A DNA stretch of 23,708 nt. Source: a virus. Each line of letters starts with the position of its first letter. Within the stretch, counting starts at the first letter, position 1. The notes beneath the pieces were generated by a model, which saw only the letters and a program-made list of their open reading frames with translations, was not told the origin of the DNA and did not search any database. The translations under genes and the position numbers were made by a program. This document shows positions 1 to 5,936 of this stretch, one piece after another. The stretch is from the IMG/VR virus record IMGVR_UViG_3300020478_000070, positions 1-23,708 of that record; one strand, written 5' to 3'.

Positions 1-288
1 GGTTTGTGTAACAGAGGTGGTTGCCACTGCCACTACTGCTGTTGTTACAGCTGTTACCACTACCGCTGTTTCAGGTATTGGCATCTGTATATCTAATACA
101 GGAATTGTTAATTTAGGTGGCTCAGGTTCCTCAGTCGTAGGTTCCGCCTCAGTGTCCTTAGGACGCTCCAAATCGGCTGGGGGTACGATCATAGGTTTAT
201 AGGCTGGAACGTCCGCTGTAGGCGGTTTAAAGTACATCTGAGGGATATCTAATGCCTTGGGTAGGTCAGCACTAGGTATGTCTATCAT
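1..288 (-). CDS. Proline-rich protein with probable membrane segment, 5' part only
   Basis: The frame stays open from an ATG at 288 to the window edge, giving 96 codons with no stop. The ATG overlaps the stop of the preceding fibre-like gene as ATGA, so translation is probably coupled. The protein opens MIDIPSADLPKALDIPQMYF and then has many prolines and acidic residues in short PPAD, EPTTEEPEPP-type stretches up to about residue 65. From about residue 75 it becomes a run of Val, Ala and Thr (TAVVVTAVTTAVVAVATT), which looks like a membrane helix or fusion-like segment. I recall proteins of this design (Pro-rich stalk, then VTAATTAV-like hydrophobic segment) as conserved unknowns in cyanophages; that is memory, not a search. 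Function is unknown. The position after the fibre genes would fit a virion-associated or lysis-related membrane protein, but nothing here decides that. Confidence 0.7.
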   Translation of the reverse strand, partial: MIDIPSADLPKALDIPQMYFKPPTADVPAYKPMIVPPADLERPKDTEAEPTTEEPEPPKLTIPVLDIQMPIPETAVVVTAVTTAVVAVATTSVTQT

Positions 289-965
289 CCGATTGCTGTG
301 ATACCAACGCAGGGTACTTGTGTTATATCGGCGTTAGTTTGATCCCAATAAAATGTATTATTTATCCTTGCTTCATTTCCACTTCCATATCTTCTACCCA
401 TAACTTTAATAGTTTTAGCAGTATTCCATGCATCTATCCTACCAGTATCATTATCAGTAATACCACCTATATTGATACCCCATTTGAAGACCATTGATGG
501 GTTAGCATCTTCACCATTAGCATGATGATACTGAGATTTTCTGGAATGTGTAATATCATTACCATCGAAATTCAGTTTATAATGGATTAAATGGGAACCA
601 CTATTACCAGTAGCATTATTAGCTGAGAAATGAAATTCATAAATAACTTGTTTCGTTCCAGTTGGAGGATTATAAGATATTTCTGAACCTTCAAACGTAG
701 TATGTGTATCACTAAGTGTTTGAGAACCAGTTACATTAGTAACCGTTATATCCCCATTTGCTGTTGCTATAGTTGAACCATCAGCAGGAGTAAAAAATTG
801 TTCTATAATATATCTACCAGAGGAGATATTATTAGTACCATTAACAGTAAGATTACCATTTATTGTGGTATTACCTTTTAATGTGGTATTACCTGAAGCA
901 TCTAATGATATAGCATCAGAAGAAGCTCCAGTTTGACGTATGTCATCAACTTTTAATCTGCTCAT
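285..965 (-). CDS. Tail fibre-like protein, 226 aa
   Basis: This gene starts MSRLKVDDIRQTGASSDAIS, a short adaptor-like beginning often seen in cyanophage fibre proteins. It continues with a strand-turn repeat around residues 22-50 (LDASGNTTLKGNTTINGNLTVNG), which suggests a trimeric beta-structured shaft. The remainder (about residues 52-226) looks like a beta-sandwich head, with VIYEFHFSANN and a later SHLIHYKLNFDGNDIT strand pair, and lacks the LMEI-type ending of the four related fibre genes nearby. It overlaps the gene before it by four bases and the gene after it by four bases. I infer a receptor-binding or decoration role from composition and location. No catalytic motif is visible, and a chaperone role cannot be excluded. 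Confidence 0.65.
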   Translation of the reverse strand: MSRLKVDDIRQTGASSDAISLDASGNTTLKGNTTINGNLTVNGTNNISSGRYIIEQFFTPADGSTIATANGDITVTNVTGSQTLSDTHTTFEGSEISYNPPTGTKQVIYEFHFSANNATGNSGSHLIHYKLNFDGNDITHSRKSQYHHANGEDANPSMVFKWGINIGGITDNDTGRIDAWNTAKTIKVMGRRYGSGNEARINNTFYWDQTNADITQVPCVGITAIG

Positions 966-1633
966 GCTCCTACCTCCATCAATGTTATATGTTGTGATGT
1001 TCTAGTATTATAATTACCATCAGCAGTATTACCATTACCACCTAAAATTATTGTATAAGCACTACTATTAGGAGTACCAAGCTGTATTTTATAAGTTAAT
1101 GTATCTCCAGCTGTATAAGTAGGTGTATCTAAATATGTACCAGAAATATTATCCTGTGTATAATAATGAGGTCCAGTAGCAGCATAATAAGAGAAAAATC
1201 CTCTTTCTCTACTTCCAGCAGCATCACCTCTATTAATTTCAGTACTATCACGGAACATTTTACCACCTGCATGAGTGTTACCAGCACTAATATTTATAGA
1301 ATAATTTACTAGAACTTTACTCCCTGCATTTGGTAATGTTATCTTACAACACCATATACTACCAGCTCCTGCTTGATCTGTTCCTGGAATATCTGTATAT
1401 GAAGCTGTACCAGTTTGACTATAAACATCAGTCTTTTCAGACATAACGACTTGTAAGATTTTACCACCATCTAATGTAGCAAATTCTAATTCACCTGCAG
1501 TCCCACTATTTTTTAAATATTGATTTGCACTTCCATTACTTGTTGGTAGTGTAAGTGTATTACTACCTGCAGTTGCTGGTGCTGATAATTCAACATAACC
1601 AGACGTACCTGATAATTTAACTTTTCCTGTCAT
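962..1633 (-). CDS. Short fibre-like protein of the LMEI-ending family, 223 aa
   Basis: This is one of four neighbouring genes that share a C-terminal domain. Markers of that domain here are GGKILQVVMSEKTDVYS (about residues 56-72), ITLPNAGSKVLVNYSINIS (about 98-116), a later YLDTPTY-TLTYKIQLG strand pair, and the final residues HITLMEVGA. The N-terminal part (residues 1-55) has LPTSNGSANQYLKNSGTAG, closely matching the gene at 3973-4701. The protein is rich in Gly, Ser, Thr and Asn, with no membrane segment or enzymatic signature. It follows the previous gene with a one-base TAATG-type overlap. The likely role is a tail fibre or fibre-tip receptor-binding subunit. This is inferred from the fibre-like modules and from lying downstream of the gp17 homologue. 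Confidence 0.7.
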   Translation of the reverse strand: MTGKVKLSGTSGYVELSAPATAGSNTLTLPTSNGSANQYLKNSGTAGELEFATLDGGKILQVVMSEKTDVYSQTGTASYTDIPGTDQAGAGSIWCCKITLPNAGSKVLVNYSINISAGNTHAGGKMFRDSTEINRGDAAGSRERGFFSYYAATGPHYYTQDNISGTYLDTPTYTAGDTLTYKIQLGTPNSSAYTIILGGNGNTADGNYNTRTSQHITLMEVGA

Positions 1634-2223
1634 TATTTAATCTCCGATACAATTAAAGTAGAGACGTTTCTACCACCAGATGAACTATCATTACCAGTAT
1701 GTGGTCTATTTAGATAAGCCGTATAAGCACCTTCTATTTTAAATTGTGCTTTAAAAGTTATAGTAGATGTTGTTGCAGGAGAATGTACACCAATAAAAGT
1801 TGTAGGTTGGAAGCACCAATTATCAGTATTGGTGGATACTCCATACAAGTTTCCAAACTGTGTCTCACTATTAGATGTTTGTAATGAGGTACTAGTTAAA
1901 TCAGTTAAAGCACTTGTTGTCCCACCTATCTCTTTTACAATTCTAGCCCAAGAATAATTCTCATGTGAAACTATACATAATGTAGATAGAATTAAAATTT
2001 TTGAATCAGTTGATGAAGGTGTTATATCAACAGAAAGACCAGCAATATCTGTAAAAGTATTTATACTGGAAAAAGTTGCAACATCTGTTTTGGTGGCATA
2101 TTTCGTTTGAAGTGTTTCTCCAAGTTTAATAGCAGTTGCTAAATCATCAGCAGTTACTGATTGATCTGGATAACCTCCTGCGGGAATCCCTGTGATCCCG
2201 CTACCACTTATTGTTACTGGCAT
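1633..2223 (-). CDS. Short fibre-like protein of the LMEI-ending family, 196 aa
   Basis: This is the shortest member of the four-gene set. The N-terminus (MPVTISGSGITGIPAGGYPD) differs from its siblings and contains the QSVTADDLATAIKLGE segment typical of phage fibre shafts. The shared domain follows, with LQTKYATKTDVATFSS (about residues 38-53), LSVDITPSSTDSKILILSTL (about 63-82), and an ending STLIVSEIK in place of the LMEI form. It lies directly next to the start of the following gene. A receptor-binding or host-range role is inferred. The divergent N-terminus suggests that the attachment part and the head domain have been exchanged independently. Confidence 0.7.
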   Translation of the reverse strand: MPVTISGSGITGIPAGGYPDQSVTADDLATAIKLGETLQTKYATKTDVATFSSINTFTDIAGLSVDITPSSTDSKILILSTLCIVSHENYSWARIVKEIGGTTSALTDLTSTSLQTSNSETQFGNLYGVSTNTDNWCFQPTTFIGVHSPATTSTITFKAQFKIEGAYTAYLNRPHTGNDSSSGGRNVSTLIVSEIK

Positions 2224-2991
2224 TTATATCACCGTCCATGTGTGTGTAGAGCCAATTGTAACAGTTTTAGTGGCGGCTATTGTTACGGGTCCGATTGTCA
2301 TTGCATTTATATTATTTGTAGTTCCGTTATCTCCAATAGAATAATCTTCAGTTATTTCATTAGAGTTTTCCCAAAACATTTTATCAGTACCACCACCTTT
2401 AGCAGATGCAACATCACTCCAAGCTAGATTTCCAGCTGCATCACTTGTTAAAGCTTGTCCACTAGAAGTAGCATCAGCTGCAGGAAGTTTCCAAATTAGT
2501 TGTGTACCTGAAGGTAAGGATGAGCCTACGCTACTGAACCCAACATAATCAGCCTCTACATTCCCACAGAATTTCATACTGCAAGGTCCAGCAGTAGTAC
2601 CACTTAGTAAAACACCATCAGACTGTAAATAACCAGCACTTGTTCCAGTTCCTGAAGTCCCTGGACCTAACCAAGTGAATGAAGTTCCTTGACCAGTTGC
2701 ATAAAATGCTGGAGTGTCAAGACGTCCACTATTAGAATTATACTTTAAACCTGTATTAGTCTTAGGTGCTTGATCACCTGTATCATCTGTAGTAAATACA
2801 GGGTAACAGTCTGTATCTGTACCCTCATTAGTAACTGGAATAGTTGAAGTATTTACTGTATCCCACTCAGGTGCTCCACCATCTACATTCTTTAGGAACT
2901 TACCAGCATCGCTAGTAGTTCCATTTTCAAAATCCTCTAACTTTATAGAAGCATCCTTAAGACCTTTAGTACCGACTTCGGTTAAAGCCAT
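2224..2991 (-). CDS. Tail fibre-like protein, 255 aa
   Basis: The start is well supported: AGGAGG lies five bases before the ATG, the best ribosome-binding site in this fibre block. The N-terminus (MALTEVGTKGLKDASIKLED) resembles cyanophage fibre adaptors. The middle is Gly/Ser/Thr-rich and contains a fibre-type segment SGQALTSDAAGNLAWSDV at about residues 177-194. The last 45 residues (NSNEITEDYSIGDNG through IGPVTIAATKTVTIGSTHTW) match in pattern the C-terminus of the gp17-like fibre at 5936-8092, where the sequence is SVGPITVNGTVTVNGRWVV. This closing module, ending in a Trp-containing strand, is common in marine phage fibres and may form a trimer cap. The function is therefore probably a secondary fibre, and no enzyme motif is seen. 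Confidence 0.7.
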   Translation of the reverse strand: MALTEVGTKGLKDASIKLEDFENGTTSDAGKFLKNVDGGAPEWDTVNTSTIPVTNEGTDTDCYPVFTTDDTGDQAPKTNTGLKYNSNSGRLDTPAFYATGQGTSFTWLGPGTSGTGTSAGYLQSDGVLLSGTTAGPCSMKFCGNVEADYVGFSSVGSSLPSGTQLIWKLPAADATSSGQALTSDAAGNLAWSDVASAKGGGTDKMFWENSNEITEDYSIGDNGTTNNINAMTIGPVTIAATKTVTIGSTHTWTVI

Positions 2992-2996
2992 TTATT

Positions 2997-3002
2997 CCTC
3001 CT
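2997..3002 (-). promoter_or_regulatory. Strong Shine-Dalgarno site for the 255-aa fibre gene
   Basis: The minus strand reads AGGAGG followed by AATAA and then ATG, a full anti-16S match at ideal spacing. Most neighbouring genes lack such a site and instead start inside the previous stop codon. This suggests that translation is re-initiated independently here, after the 111-aa gene. Confidence 0.75.
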
Positions 3003-3336
3003 ATGGTTTAGGATATTTATCTTTTGTGGCTTTGATTGCTGTGGCAAAACCTCCACTGGTGGTTAAAGTTCCAGCTACAATATCTTTATAAAGTAAGTCG
3101 AGCTGGTCTCCTATTGGTAGATAGACTGTATCTTGTGAAGACCCAGGGAATGCTCCTACTCTATCTTTTTTATATTTAACAGCAGCAGCTTCGTTATCCA
3201 AAGCTGTACGTGCTGTATTGATTTTTGAAATCTCTAAGGTAATTTTATTACCATCTTTATCAAACGCTCCATGCCCATCATCAATGGAACAAGCGTTTGG
3301 ATAAGCTCTTCTGATTGCTTCGTGATCTAATGCCAT
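3001..3336 (-). CDS. Conserved cyanophage small protein, 111 aa (IGDQLDLLY / KDKYPKP type)
   Basis: This 111-residue protein ends with the pattern YLPIGDQLDLLYKDI followed by FATAIKATKDKYPKP. I recognise that pattern as a recurrent C-terminal signature of small proteins encoded among tail fibre genes of marine phages. The N-terminal half (MALDHEAIRRAYPNACSIDD, then EISKINTARTALDNE) is probably alpha-helical. No signal peptide or membrane segment is present. Its place between two fibre-like genes suggests a fibre assembly or attachment role, but its biochemical function is not known to me. Only 25 bases separate it from the upstream fibre gene. Confidence 0.7.
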   Translation of the reverse strand: MALDHEAIRRAYPNACSIDDGHGAFDKDGNKITLEISKINTARTALDNEAAAVKYKKDRVGAFPGSSQDTVYLPIGDQLDLLYKDIVAGTLTTSGGFATAIKATKDKYPKP

Positions 3337-3361
3337 GATTAAAAATAAGTGTTAAAATTAA

Positions 3362-3973
3362 TTACGCTACTACTTCCATAAGGATTAATGAAGAAGTTGT
3401 CCGTTGCTTCGCTGTATTATCACTATCATTTATAGTTCTATTTACATAAATAGCATTAGAACTATCAGGATCCATATCTTGAACTGCATAAGTATGCGTT
3501 CCAGTACCAGGAGTATCTAAATAATTAAATACAAGTGATCCTGGGTAGTCATCGTGTGGTTGAAGTGCAACAGTTCCTACAGTCCTACTTCCTGCATCAG
3601 TTGCTTGAGAAATTTTTGTTGAACCTCTTACTAAGTTAAGAACATGTCCTCCGTAACTACTTCCACAAGTTGCTTGAACTTGTGCCATAATTAACACTTT
3701 ATTAGAAGCAGAAGTCATTGTAATTGATTGTTCTAATCCAGGGATAGTTGTGGAAGTACTATCAGATGTTCTTGTATAAGAATCGCTTTTAAATGCTTGA
3801 AGAACTTGGATAACTGTACCAGGACAAGCTAATTTCTTTTCAGGTACTGTTAAAGTCTCAGTTACTGTTAAATCCTTAGCTACTGTTACATTACCCGTAC
3901 CAGCTAATGTTATATTCGCTGGTCCTGCTGTATTCCCTGAATGTGTCAGGGTATCTACGATTATTTCACTCAT
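3362..3973 (-). CDS. Short fibre-like protein of the LMEI-ending family, 203 aa
   Basis: The N-terminus is MSEIIVDTLTHSGNTAGPAN followed by a strand repeat (NVTVAKDLTVTETLTVPEKK), a typical beta-helical shaft pattern. From about residue 50 comes the shared head domain, with GTVIQVLQAFKSDSYTRTS, then LEQSITMTSASNKVLIMAQV, then YLDTPGTGTHTYAVQ, ending SSLILMEVVA. The pattern (LQV..K.D, then ITxxSxxSKxLI, then LDTPGT-TY, then LMEV) repeats in the neighbours. It overlaps the previous stop by one base (TAATG). It is inferred to be a receptor-binding fibre subunit. A structural search would be needed to decide whether the head is lectin-like or C1q/TNF-like. Confidence 0.72.
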   Translation of the reverse strand: MSEIIVDTLTHSGNTAGPANITLAGTGNVTVAKDLTVTETLTVPEKKLACPGTVIQVLQAFKSDSYTRTSDSTSTTIPGLEQSITMTSASNKVLIMAQVQATCGSSYGGHVLNLVRGSTKISQATDAGSRTVGTVALQPHDDYPGSLVFNYLDTPGTGTHTYAVQDMDPDSSNAIYVNRTINDSDNTAKQRTTSSLILMEVVA

Positions 3974-4701
3974 TATGATTCAATCTCCATTAAAGTTAGT
4001 GTAGATATTGAAACCCATGAAAAGTCAGTATCTTGTGATGTCTGTTGTGAATTAGTATTCACGTATGTTGTATGAACACCACTGTTGTCTGCAATGTTAC
4101 CAAAATAAACCTTATAAGTAAGGTCTACTACTGAACCACTACCTCCAAAAGGATCATCTAAATATGTACCTGCCAAAGTGAATGCACCTTCATAATCTGT
4201 ATACGAACCACCACTAGGGTTAGCCGGACACATTTTAGCTACCCGCCTTCTGTTAGAACCGCTTTGGTTCCCTGCGGATGTCATAACTTCTGTACCTCCA
4301 GCAGGAGTTCTACTAATTCCTATACCTGAATATCTAGTAGTAGAATGTAAGGATACATCGTACATAATAAGAATTTTACTATTAACACTAGCAGGAGTTA
4401 GAGTTAAACTTAATCCTGTTACCAAGGTTCCCCAAGTATGAAATTTAAGAGCATCACTAGCACCAGTTGTATCTGCTGTAGTTGATTGACCATCTTTTTG
4501 AGATGCCGATTTAACTTGTAGAATCTTTCCACCTTGATCTGTTCCCCATCCAAGGTTTTTGTTACCATCAGTTTTTAAATACTGTCCTGCTGAACCATCA
4601 GCATTAGGTAATACAAAAACACTATTTTCTGATGTACTAGCAGCTCCTTTTAAAGAAGTTGAACCTCCACCAGATGTTGCAGTTATTTTAATTTCTGCCA
4701 T
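3973..4701 (-). CDS. Short fibre-like protein of the LMEI-ending family, 242 aa
   Basis: This is the longest of the four related proteins. The N-terminal 55 residues include FVLPNADGSAGQYLKTDG, nearly the same arrangement as in the 962-1633 gene (LPTSNGSANQYLKNSG). The shared domain follows, with GGKILQVKSASQKDGQSTT at about residues 57-75, LSLTLTPASVNSKILIMYDV at about 98-117, YLDDPFG later, and the ending ISTLTLMEIES. Start and stop codons of adjacent genes overlap by one base on both sides, so the block is translationally coupled. Composition (Gly, Ser, Thr, Asn) and lack of catalytic motifs fit a fibre subunit. Confidence 0.72.
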   Translation of the reverse strand: MAEIKITATSGGGSTSLKGAASTSENSVFVLPNADGSAGQYLKTDGNKNLGWGTDQGGKILQVKSASQKDGQSTTADTTGASDALKFHTWGTLVTGLSLTLTPASVNSKILIMYDVSLHSTTRYSGIGISRTPAGGTEVMTSAGNQSGSNRRRVAKMCPANPSGGSYTDYEGAFTLAGTYLDDPFGGSGSVVDLTYKVYFGNIADNSGVHTTYVNTNSQQTSQDTDFSWVSISTLTLMEIES

Positions 4702-5936
4702 TAGTAATTAACTCCTATTCCATGAATTTCAGTTACTAGAGATCCATCAGTTTGTCCAAGAAACTCTGCTTTATATTTAACTTGAGTTCCTGCTGTACAA
4801 TTTGTTTCGCCTAAATAAACTGTTTTAACACCTGTACTGAAATCTGACCCAGCTGTATAACTCACTGCTTCAGTCCAACTTGAACCATTATCACAAGTAA
4901 AATAGATTTTAAAGTCAGTTCCAGGTGTTGCAGTACCAGACACATTTTTATATGTTACAACTCCACTTACCTTCTCTCTTGAAGATGAAGCTGTATTAAG
5001 TGTACTAATTACAGAACTAGTACCACTTGATACTGGATTTTCGTTTCCTAATCTATATGATAAGCCACTCCATGAGCTAGCCCAACCTCCAGTACCACCA
5101 GCATGTAAAGCTAGAGTATTTGTATTGGTTTCATTTACATCAGCTCCACTTGCATCTGTACCATTAGAAGCACCTACAAGAGTTCCAGTTTCTCTAGACC
5201 CAGCATAGGCTCGAAAAACACCTGAAGCATCTCTTGTTATAGTTATTAGTTGGTTAGCACCTTGTAAAGCACTACCACTATTTGCAAGTGTATAAGGTCC
5301 ACTTCCATCCATTTTACTGCCTTGAGCATAGCCCCAGCTGGTTCCTGCACCTACATGGAATGCACCATAAGCACCCCAATTACCTGCACTAACCCAAGCT
5401 CCAACTCTCCAACCACTCGTTGCAGTTGCAACAGAATCATCTGGAGTTGTACCTATATCTAATGAAGCTGTCCAAAATCCAAGATAAGGACCATAAGCAT
5501 CACTACCATTAGTAGCTCTAACTTCAACCATTCCATCAAAAGTTAATGGTGTAGTAGATCTTAAAGTGATACCATTACCATCAGAGTAATAAGCATTAGT
5601 ATTAGTAAAAGTTCCATCCCCTGCTGAGTTAAAAGACTGAGGTACTAGCCAGTTATCAGCTGTTGTATTAGTCCATGCTCCACTATCATCCCAAGTAGCA
5701 TCACCATAAGGACCGATACATTCGGTAGTTGTATGTTTCTTTGCACTAGTTGAAGAGCCTATACCTGAATCTGATTCAAATTGATCTATAAAACTATTAT
5801 TTAAATTATATGCAGTTCTATTAGATTCAACTGCTATTTGTAAAGAAGTTTTAGCAAGATCTCGTCGGATGCTTCCTAAATAATCTTCTGTCGAAGTACG
5901 AATAGTTCCCGCACCTCCATCAAAAATTAATGCCAT
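4701..5936 (-). CDS. Tail fibre-like protein, possible lectin-like domain, 411 aa
   Basis: The gene begins immediately at the end of the gp17-like fibre with a one-base overlap. Residues 1-65 (MALIFDGGAGTIRTSTEDYL, later SFIDQFESDSGI) look like an attachment segment. Residues about 80-295 are rich in Trp, Gly and Ser with alternating strands, and resemble a concanavalin-type beta-sandwich in overall texture. This is an impression, not a domain hit. The last 90 residues (GTATPGTDFKIYFTCDNG, SYTAGSDFSTG, QVKYKAEFLG) look like a second beta domain common in phage fibres, in which a data strand is followed by a KYKAEF strand. A glycan-binding role on the host surface is inferred. It is not similar to the four LMEI-ending genes. 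Confidence 0.65.
   Translation of the reverse strand: MALIFDGGAGTIRTSTEDYLGSIRRDLAKTSLQIAVESNRTAYNLNNSFIDQFESDSGIGSSTSAKKHTTTECIGPYGDATWDDSGAWTNTTADNWLVPQSFNSAGDGTFTNTNAYYSDGNGITLRSTTPLTFDGMVEVRATNGSDAYGPYLGFWTASLDIGTTPDDSVATATSGWRVGAWVSAGNWGAYGAFHVGAGTSWGYAQGSKMDGSGPYTLANSGSALQGANQLITITRDASGVFRAYAGSRETGTLVGASNGTDASGADVNETNTNTLALHAGGTGGWASSWSGLSYRLGNENPVSSGTSSVISTLNTASSSREKVSGVVTYKNVSGTATPGTDFKIYFTCDNGSSWTEAVSYTAGSDFSTGVKTVYLGETNCTAGTQVKYKAEFLGQTDGSLVTEIHGIGVNY

Follow-up and report, generated by a model that had tools for sequence, protein, structure and literature searches.

A probable host-recognition array of swappable tips in a T7-like marine cyanopodovirus

Why does a T7-like marine phage carry a row of short fibre-like genes behind its main tail fibre gene, and how did this row come about? 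The question is raised by a virus contig of 23,708 nucleotides, IMG/VR record IMGVR_UViG_3300020478_000070 (the whole stretch is referred to below as the window). A sequence-only reading of the window had noticed four tandem genes between positions 962 and 4701 that share a C-terminal domain, and had proposed that they form a host-range cassette built by duplication and domain exchange. We have followed this proposal up computationally and regard it as quite probable that the row is a host-recognition array of swappable tips, in which the C-terminal part of each gene is the unit that moves.

The tip-gene family and its N-terminal types

The four genes (B, C, F and G in Table 1) are present in the list of open reading frames (ORFs) where they had been reported, all on the minus strand. 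They are part of a row that, in the order of transcription, reads gp17, H, G, F, E, D, C, B, A and Z. The common C-terminal domain of ca. 150 amino acids (aa), referred to below as the tip, was borne out by profile searches and by pairwise blastp comparisons (E-values of 8e-14 for the genes starting at 962 and 3973, 2e-13 for 962 and 3362, 2e-5 for 1633 and 3973, 8e-5 for 3362 and 3973, and 0.002 for 962 and 1633). The motifs quoted in the sequence-only reading, such as LQV..K.D and ITPxSxxSKILI, are found in the translations, and the LP..GSAxQYLK segment that it had assigned to two of the proteins is indeed common to 962 and 3973; a similar segment is also present in gp17.

A profile made from the four C-terminal halves matched homologues in the isolate P-SSP7 with E-values of 1e-32 to 3e-14. 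Since an alignment of 13 tip proteins contained no stretch conserved enough for scanning, further relatives were gathered through gene E and then through the DNA edges of the tips; a single-sequence scan of viral contigs for relatives of gene G found none. The iterated profile retrieved 158 ORFs in 99 loci, including the four window genes at E-values of 1.7e-26 or below, and the second set added 321 tip ORFs in 133 further loci, so that 479 tip ORFs in 232 loci were available. Relatives of the tip were seen in phages of Pelagibacter, Methylophilales, Limnohabitans, Synechococcus and Prochlorococcus, and deposited annotations name relatives tail fibre. Within the window, the iterated profile had no match in the ORFs at 285-965, 2224-2991, 3001-3336 and 4701-5936 or in gp17.

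The N-terminal parts were sorted by hand-written patterns into types I (MPxxINGSGxxTGIxVGGLPDG), II (MxxKIKLxxxSGGGxVSLxAP...LPxADGT), III (MSRxIVxxIRxTxASxDAITxD), IV (MATLNxTNxKHASS), V (NINGTTGISGVDGSV) and VI (MSQLKVNSIVP). In the loci that were found mainly by way of E, a type I gene is immediately followed by a type II gene 30 times, the reverse arrangement occurs 0 times, and type II is the immediate predecessor of E 60 times. The second set, which was collected through the DNA edges, gave 67:0 for I before II, with runs such as I-II-IV-E and I-II-E-III. Both sets together hold 97 adjacent I-II pairs and 0 pairs in the reverse order. As can be seen, the N-terminal module is tied to the position of the gene in the array. 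The order found in the window is II-III-E-D-I-II-III, gene A being the last III; I before II is kept, and the array is expanded.

Exchange of tips and the edges of the exchanged unit

When the N-types are mapped on a tree built from 143 tip domains, 65 changes are required, against 66.1 after shuffling of the labels, and a number as low was reached in 84 of 200 shuffles. Nine pairs of genes of different N-type have tip DNA that is 76-88% identical and N-terminal DNA that is 41-52% identical. Conversely, in 109 of the 128 pairs whose N-termini are at least 85% identical, the tips are less than 45% identical. According to a bin-by-bin comparison, the exchanged segment opens with the first GKILQV codon and closes with the stop codon. 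The clearest case is P-SSP7_037, whose tip DNA is 98% identical to the tip of contig L034, with ungapped flanks that are unrelated on both sides. Since near-identical tips are found on unrelated N-termini with sharp edges, and the tip tree is nearly independent of N-type, we conclude from the sequence comparisons that C-terminal tips have been exchanged between fixed slots, with N-termini staying put. Domain exchange, as proposed in the sequence-only reading, is therefore supported, but its moving part is the C-terminal tip and not the N-terminus.

Gene A, whose N-terminal module had escaped the first reading, belongs to the same system. Its tip is of a second family (VIYEFHF type), and a homologue (phmmer E-value of 1e-39) is carried on a type I start at L020:4279-4872; since the same other-family tip is found on a type III start in the window and on a type I start in L020, gene A extends the rule of exchange. 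The L020 homologue was the one found for this tip. The possibility that the gene A tip is a diverged member of the main tip family was rejected as unproven (hhalign probability of 10%).

Both edges of the tip are conserved beyond the protein level. For each alignment column, synonymous codon use was set against a background taken from the same genes, edge codons included. At the 5′ edge, Ile is encoded by ATT in 91% of cases against 51% in the background, and Leu by CTT in 78% against 25%; at the 3′ edge, the columns favour GAG for Glu (93%), GTA for Val and GCA for Ala. Equally conserved interior columns (Ile32, Thr33, Asp103, Tyr113 and Asn129) showed next to no codon departure. With the last codons left out of the background, GAG at the 3′ edge stands at 140 of 149 (94%) against 17% (p = 5e-96). 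Within the MEVAA codons at this edge, which reads ATGGAGGTAGCAGCATAATG, there is a GGAGG a few bases upstream of the point where the following, overlapping gene begins. Such a GGAGG precedes the overlapping start in 71 of 105 cases after tip genes, in 19 of 135 after other genes and in 0 of 52 after E genes. Where the next start does not overlap, as after window gene F (25-nt gap) and P-SSP7_039, GAA is commoner (4 of 10 against 5 of 139, Fisher p = 0.001). Because of the GAG bias, the GGAGG ahead of overlapping starts and the GAA in the absence of overlap, the most satisfactory reading of the 3′ edge is that of a Shine-Dalgarno site for the following gene, contained in the tip itself. A ribosome_binding_site feature is annotated under the tip-gene match of Pelagibacter phage EXVC031P Hodr (OQ414635.1, 23637-24098), which agrees with the Shine-Dalgarno reading.

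No ribosome-binding reason exists at the 5′ edge, and homology for recombination is its simplest, if unproven, reading. The edge sequences hardly occur outside tip genes: in the second-set loci, 126 of 128 exact 3′-edge 20-mers and 66 of 66 5′-edge 18-mers lie in tip ORFs, counts that tell the specificity of the edges and not their frequency, as this set was collected through them.

Two other accounts of this history deserve weighing. Tandem duplication within the phage, the other half of the earlier proposal, was not clearly supported, and we mostly reject it on the tip tree, where tips of other phages are at least as near to the window tips as these are to one another. Genes B and G (962 with 3973) pair weakly (Shimodaira-Hasegawa-like approximate likelihood ratio test value of 86), and no well-supported (starred) group joins the four. 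Plain duplication and divergence in this lineage, with N-termini replaced later, would suit the tandem layout, the common domain, the weak B-G pair and one locus, L022, in which two tips group together; we find it improbable, given that other phages supply most of the nearest relatives of the window tips by path and that the order of N-types is fixed across unrelated tips. Duplication is possible for the B-G pair, but for the rest, uptake from a common pool is the better explanation. The second account holds that the edges are not recombination anchors at all: the 3′ edge would be kept for translation of the next gene and the 5′ edge for some reason at the mRNA level, with random illegitimate recombination and selection for intact proteins producing the exchanges. 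Shine-Dalgarno use alone does explain the 3′ edge well, and the GAA counts at non-overlapping starts speak for it too. Yet the 5′ edge, which has no ribosome-binding role, shows the same synonymous conservation, and the observed exchanges start exactly there, which makes this account a credible one but less probable than not.

Predicted fold of the tip and the probable role of protein E

The fold of the tip was modelled with AlphaFold2 for gene F, using an alignment of 111 relatives and a single chain. The predicted local distance difference test score (pLDDT) exceeds 90 over most of residues 52-203 and is 57-67 over the N-terminal 51 residues. A Foldseek search of the PDB with this model returned the C-terminal domain of Pgp3 (E-value of 2e-6), PLTL (3e-5), BC2L-C (9e-5) and the phage lambda gpJ fibre (3e-4); gpJ, the phi812 spike and the Bdellovibrio Bd2734 fibre tip (8okw, 8e-3) are among the weaker matches. 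The C-terminal domain of chlamydial Pgp3 and the lectins PLTL and BC2L-C are trimeric TNF-like domains, and the target-normalised TM-score of the predicted model to the Pgp3 domain and PLTL is ca. 0.7. The best PDB relatives of the tip are trimers (see also PMC10769870). Among viral models, Foldseek found 228 matches at E-values of 0.001 or below. None of the four tip proteins had a Pfam match at an E-value of 1 or below. In its predicted fold, the tip is thus similar to TNF/C1q-like domains, with beta jelly roll topology, yet it lies outside any Pfam family. A relative at the sequence level is formed by the last ca. 180 residues (480-657) of orf22, a solved phage-like protein that accounts for 18 chains of PDB entry 9efk (E-value of 3e-37); a PDB sequence search with G gave nothing significant. 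Longer fibre-like proteins in MED4-184, like orf22 of 9efk, carry the tip domain as their C-terminus.

Since the relatives of the tip found by Foldseek and by sequence include glycan-binding TNF-like lectins, fibre tips and phage proteins, its most likely role is host recognition; the tips would form trimers, be placed on the virion and bind a receptor. C1q-type receptor-binding candidates are reported in marine phages (PMC3909814), and, together with the predicted fold, they make the host-range role suggested in the sequence-only reading a probable one.

The second component of the array is gene E, the 111-aa gene that had been listed as sitting among the fibre-like genes. It is there, but it is not a mere bystander: among E homologues collected without reference to tips, a tip gene ends no more than 60 nt upstream in 77 of 80 loci; of the three exceptions, one is a fragment of 407 bp, and in the other two the gap is longer. 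Sixty E homologues are 44-72% identical to the window protein across very different tips, and since E is far more conserved than the tips, one chaperone for several tips would suit it. The E homologue of Synechococcus phage RB11-B ends in PF16778, Phage_tail_APC (E-value of 2e-15). Phage Pam3 shows that such a pairing works: its fibre gp24 (with a TNF-like domain) and the small two-domain chaperone gp25 have been solved as a 3:3 complex (PMC9608196); there is no sequence match to it in the PDB searches, and the glycine-rich domain of gp24 is not evident here. We conclude that E is probably a tip-assembly chaperone that helps tips fold or trimerise.

Both assignments have competitors. The tip proteins might be decorations of the virion off the tail, such as head fibres or horn and knob proteins, with the same TNF-like fold; marine podoviruses such as Syn5 bear extra head appendages. 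We consider this unlikely, as the genes lie directly after gp17 and beside a tail-assembly-chaperone-like gene, the annotations of relatives name tail fibres, and the domain ends the longer proteins of MED4-184 and 9efk. Protein E, for its part, might act as a structural adaptor, or its gene might be a small one with no connection to the tips. A Pfam search with the window protein and 59 aligned homologues gave no convincing match (PF16778 and XkdW included), a PDB sequence search was without significant result, and so was Foldseek with the E model, where the second match was 2hg7 (PBSX XkdW) with an E-value of 1.7; the strong conservation across different tips would also befit an adaptor. The position directly downstream of a tip gene, the PF16778 end of the RB11-B version and the Pam3 precedent favour the chaperone, so that this other reading is a real but lesser possibility.

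Put together, the model builds on the computed paralogy, slot order, uncoupling of tip and N-terminus, sharp edges, edge codon conservation and E-tip pairing, and it would take homologous recombination as the route of exchange. Each array gene would encode a short trimeric adhesin made of an N-terminal module of 20-60 aa, which (as slot type I, II, III or IV) would set its place in the array, and a jelly-roll tip of ca. 150 aa, whose probable function is to hold on to a surface glycan or protein. Tips would move between slots and phages as exact cassettes that begin with the GKILQV codons and end with the stop codon, with the two short conserved DNA edges probably serving as homology, and E would probably aid their folding or trimerisation. 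Since the MEVAA codons at the end of the cassette would double as a Shine-Dalgarno site for the overlapping gene behind it, an inserted tip should keep downstream translation running.

Several points weigh against this model. None of the four window tips is more than 40% identical to any relative, so that exchange is seen in the family and not directly in these four, and the edges are degenerate in genes C and F, for which recent exchange is therefore not claimed. The tip tree of the edge-selected second set requires 72 changes against 80.7 after shuffling (as low in 4 of 200 shuffles), i.e., there is slight clustering by N-type. The pattern-based types were checked by profile for the window genes only, and gene F is III-like with a modest score (E-value of 8e-6) in a slot where P-SSP7 has IV. 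Most relatives are metagenome contigs; the isolate P-SSP7 is present in three exchange examples. Finally, virion location and receptor binding are inferred, and the models are of single chains.

The array in its genomic setting and among known systems

On its minus strand, the window carries the block of structural genes of a T7-like marine cyanopodovirus. It comprises psbA (22155-23213) and a high-light-inducible gene, the genes for the major capsid protein, the tail tube and internal proteins, and the gp17-type fibre gene, which is followed by the row of fibre-like genes (Table 1). Core genes point to Prochlorococcus podoviruses, e.g., P-GSP1, as the nearest isolates (capsid protein 72% and PsbA 86% identical); DNA of the array region had no megablast match in the phage collection.

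Table 1. Genes of the array and edge sequences of its tip genes in the window.
Feature	Positions	Strand	Evidence and remarks
gp17-type main tail fibre, 718 aa	5936-8092	-	matches P-SCSP1u fibre gp28 (8i4m), E 9e-44; N-terminus 54% identical to P-GSP1; upstream neighbour of array
Gene H, fibre-like, 411 aa	4701-5936	-	no tip profile match; in place of P-SSP7 slot I
Tip gene G, 242 aa, N-type II, predicted TNF-like tip (~3976-4530)	3973-4701	-	tip profile E 1.7e-26; N-type II E 4e-14
Tip gene F, 203 aa, N-type III-like, predicted TNF-like tip (~3365-3820)	3362-3973	-	tip profile E 3e-38; N-type III E 8e-6; AlphaFold2 tip pLDDT > 90
Gene E, 111 aa, candidate tip-assembly chaperone	3001-3336	-	AlphaFold2 pLDDT 90
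Gene D, fibre-like, 255 aa	2224-2991	-	phrog_34255 E 2e-10; phrog_6942 tail fibre E 2e-5; no tip profile match
Tip gene C, 196 aa, N-type I, predicted TNF-like tip (~1636-2121)	1633-2223	-	tip profile E 8e-33; N-type I E 9e-13; tip related to 9efk orf22 C-terminus
Tip gene B, 223 aa, N-type II, predicted TNF-like tip (~965-1465)	962-1633	-	tip profile E 2e-37; N-type II E 1e-9
Gene A, 226 aa, N-type III, different tip	285-965	-	N-type III E 4e-15
5′ junction of G, GGAAAGATTCTACAAGTT	4513-4530	-	sequence inspected
5′ junction of F, GGTACAGTTATCCAAGTT, degenerate	3803-3820	-	sequence inspected
5′ junction of C, GGAGAAACACTTCAAACG, degenerate	2104-2121	-	sequence inspected
5′ junction of B, GKILQV codons, GGTAAAATCTTACAAGTC	1448-1465	-	family-wide synonymous conservation
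3′ edge of G, ATGGAGATTGAATCATAA(TG)	3973-3990	-	GGAG ahead of F start
3′ edge of C, ...TCGGAGATTAAATAA(TG)	1633-1650	-	GGAG ahead of B start
3′ edge of B, ATGGAGGTAGGAGCATGA	962-979	-	B end overlaps A start; GGAGG is a Shine-Dalgarno-like site for A

The C-terminus of gene D is of a type found also in other marine phage fibres, outside the tip family. Gene H had no family match; its C-terminal 116 aa are 68% identical to a protein of locus L008. Gene Z (1-288, minus strand), truncated by the window end, matches phrog_9426 of unknown function (E-value of 2e-29) as well as what follows the array in P-SSP7 and P-GSP1. A minus-strand ORF of 118 aa (21578-21934), located between the genes for PsbA and the capsid protein next to a tRNA-Gly (21247-21319), starts like a signal peptide (MKKIALALAATLASTPAMA), has a body reminiscent of a beta-barrel and resembles a small outer-membrane-type protein.

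The statement that the window holds more fibre-like material than T7 is correct, but the array is not peculiar to this phage. In the Prochlorococcus phage isolate P-SSP7 (NC_006882.2), an array of four tip genes and a small gene (037-041) follows gp17 directly in the order I-II-IV-E-III; 037, 038, 039 and 041 all match the tip profile, and 040 is a 96-aa E homologue. The window shares this layout of tandem tip genes and E downstream of gp17 and differs from it in slot order, in the additional gene D, in having gene H where slot I would be, and in the non-homologous tip of gene A. The array itself is thus not new; it is a form of swappable phage adhesin tips with several ordered slots and exact cassette ends carrying translation signals. 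In the distal tail fibre adhesin of T-even phages, host-specificity segments are swapped between short conserved sequences; one adhesin gene is involved there, whereas here several ordered slots are found, and the exchanged unit would bring the ribosome-binding site of the next gene along.

The C1q candidates of marine phages described in PMC3909814 resemble the tips in having a hypervariable C1q-like domain beside the tail fibre and a better conserved N-terminus, and an XkdW-type gene is also among the island genes; slot types, exchange edges or carry-over of a ribosome-binding site are not described in the portion of that report we could draw on. The mosaic adhesive trimer fibres of Bdellovibrio (PMC10769870) likewise bear TNF-like tips, swapped in evolution, on trimeric fibres; those are bacterial surface proteins of ca. 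1000 aa, whereas here short phage proteins form an ordered array.

How marine phages keep up with fast-changing host surfaces is an old question for the viruses of Prochlorococcus and SAR11. We tentatively propose, as slightly less likely than not, that the array genes are combinatorial plug-in adhesins: ordered docking slots with their own N-terminal adaptors would be open to every tip of a gene pool common to marine phages, the two DNA edges would be kept by selection for exchange, and, as the cassette would bring the ribosome-binding site of the following gene with it, swaps would never break the operon. The tip cassette would offer a sequence-defined unit of host-range change whose exact ends make it countable in any virome. 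The conservation of MEVAA, which appears to be partly that of a ribosome-binding site, also cautions against reading all protein conservation as protein function.

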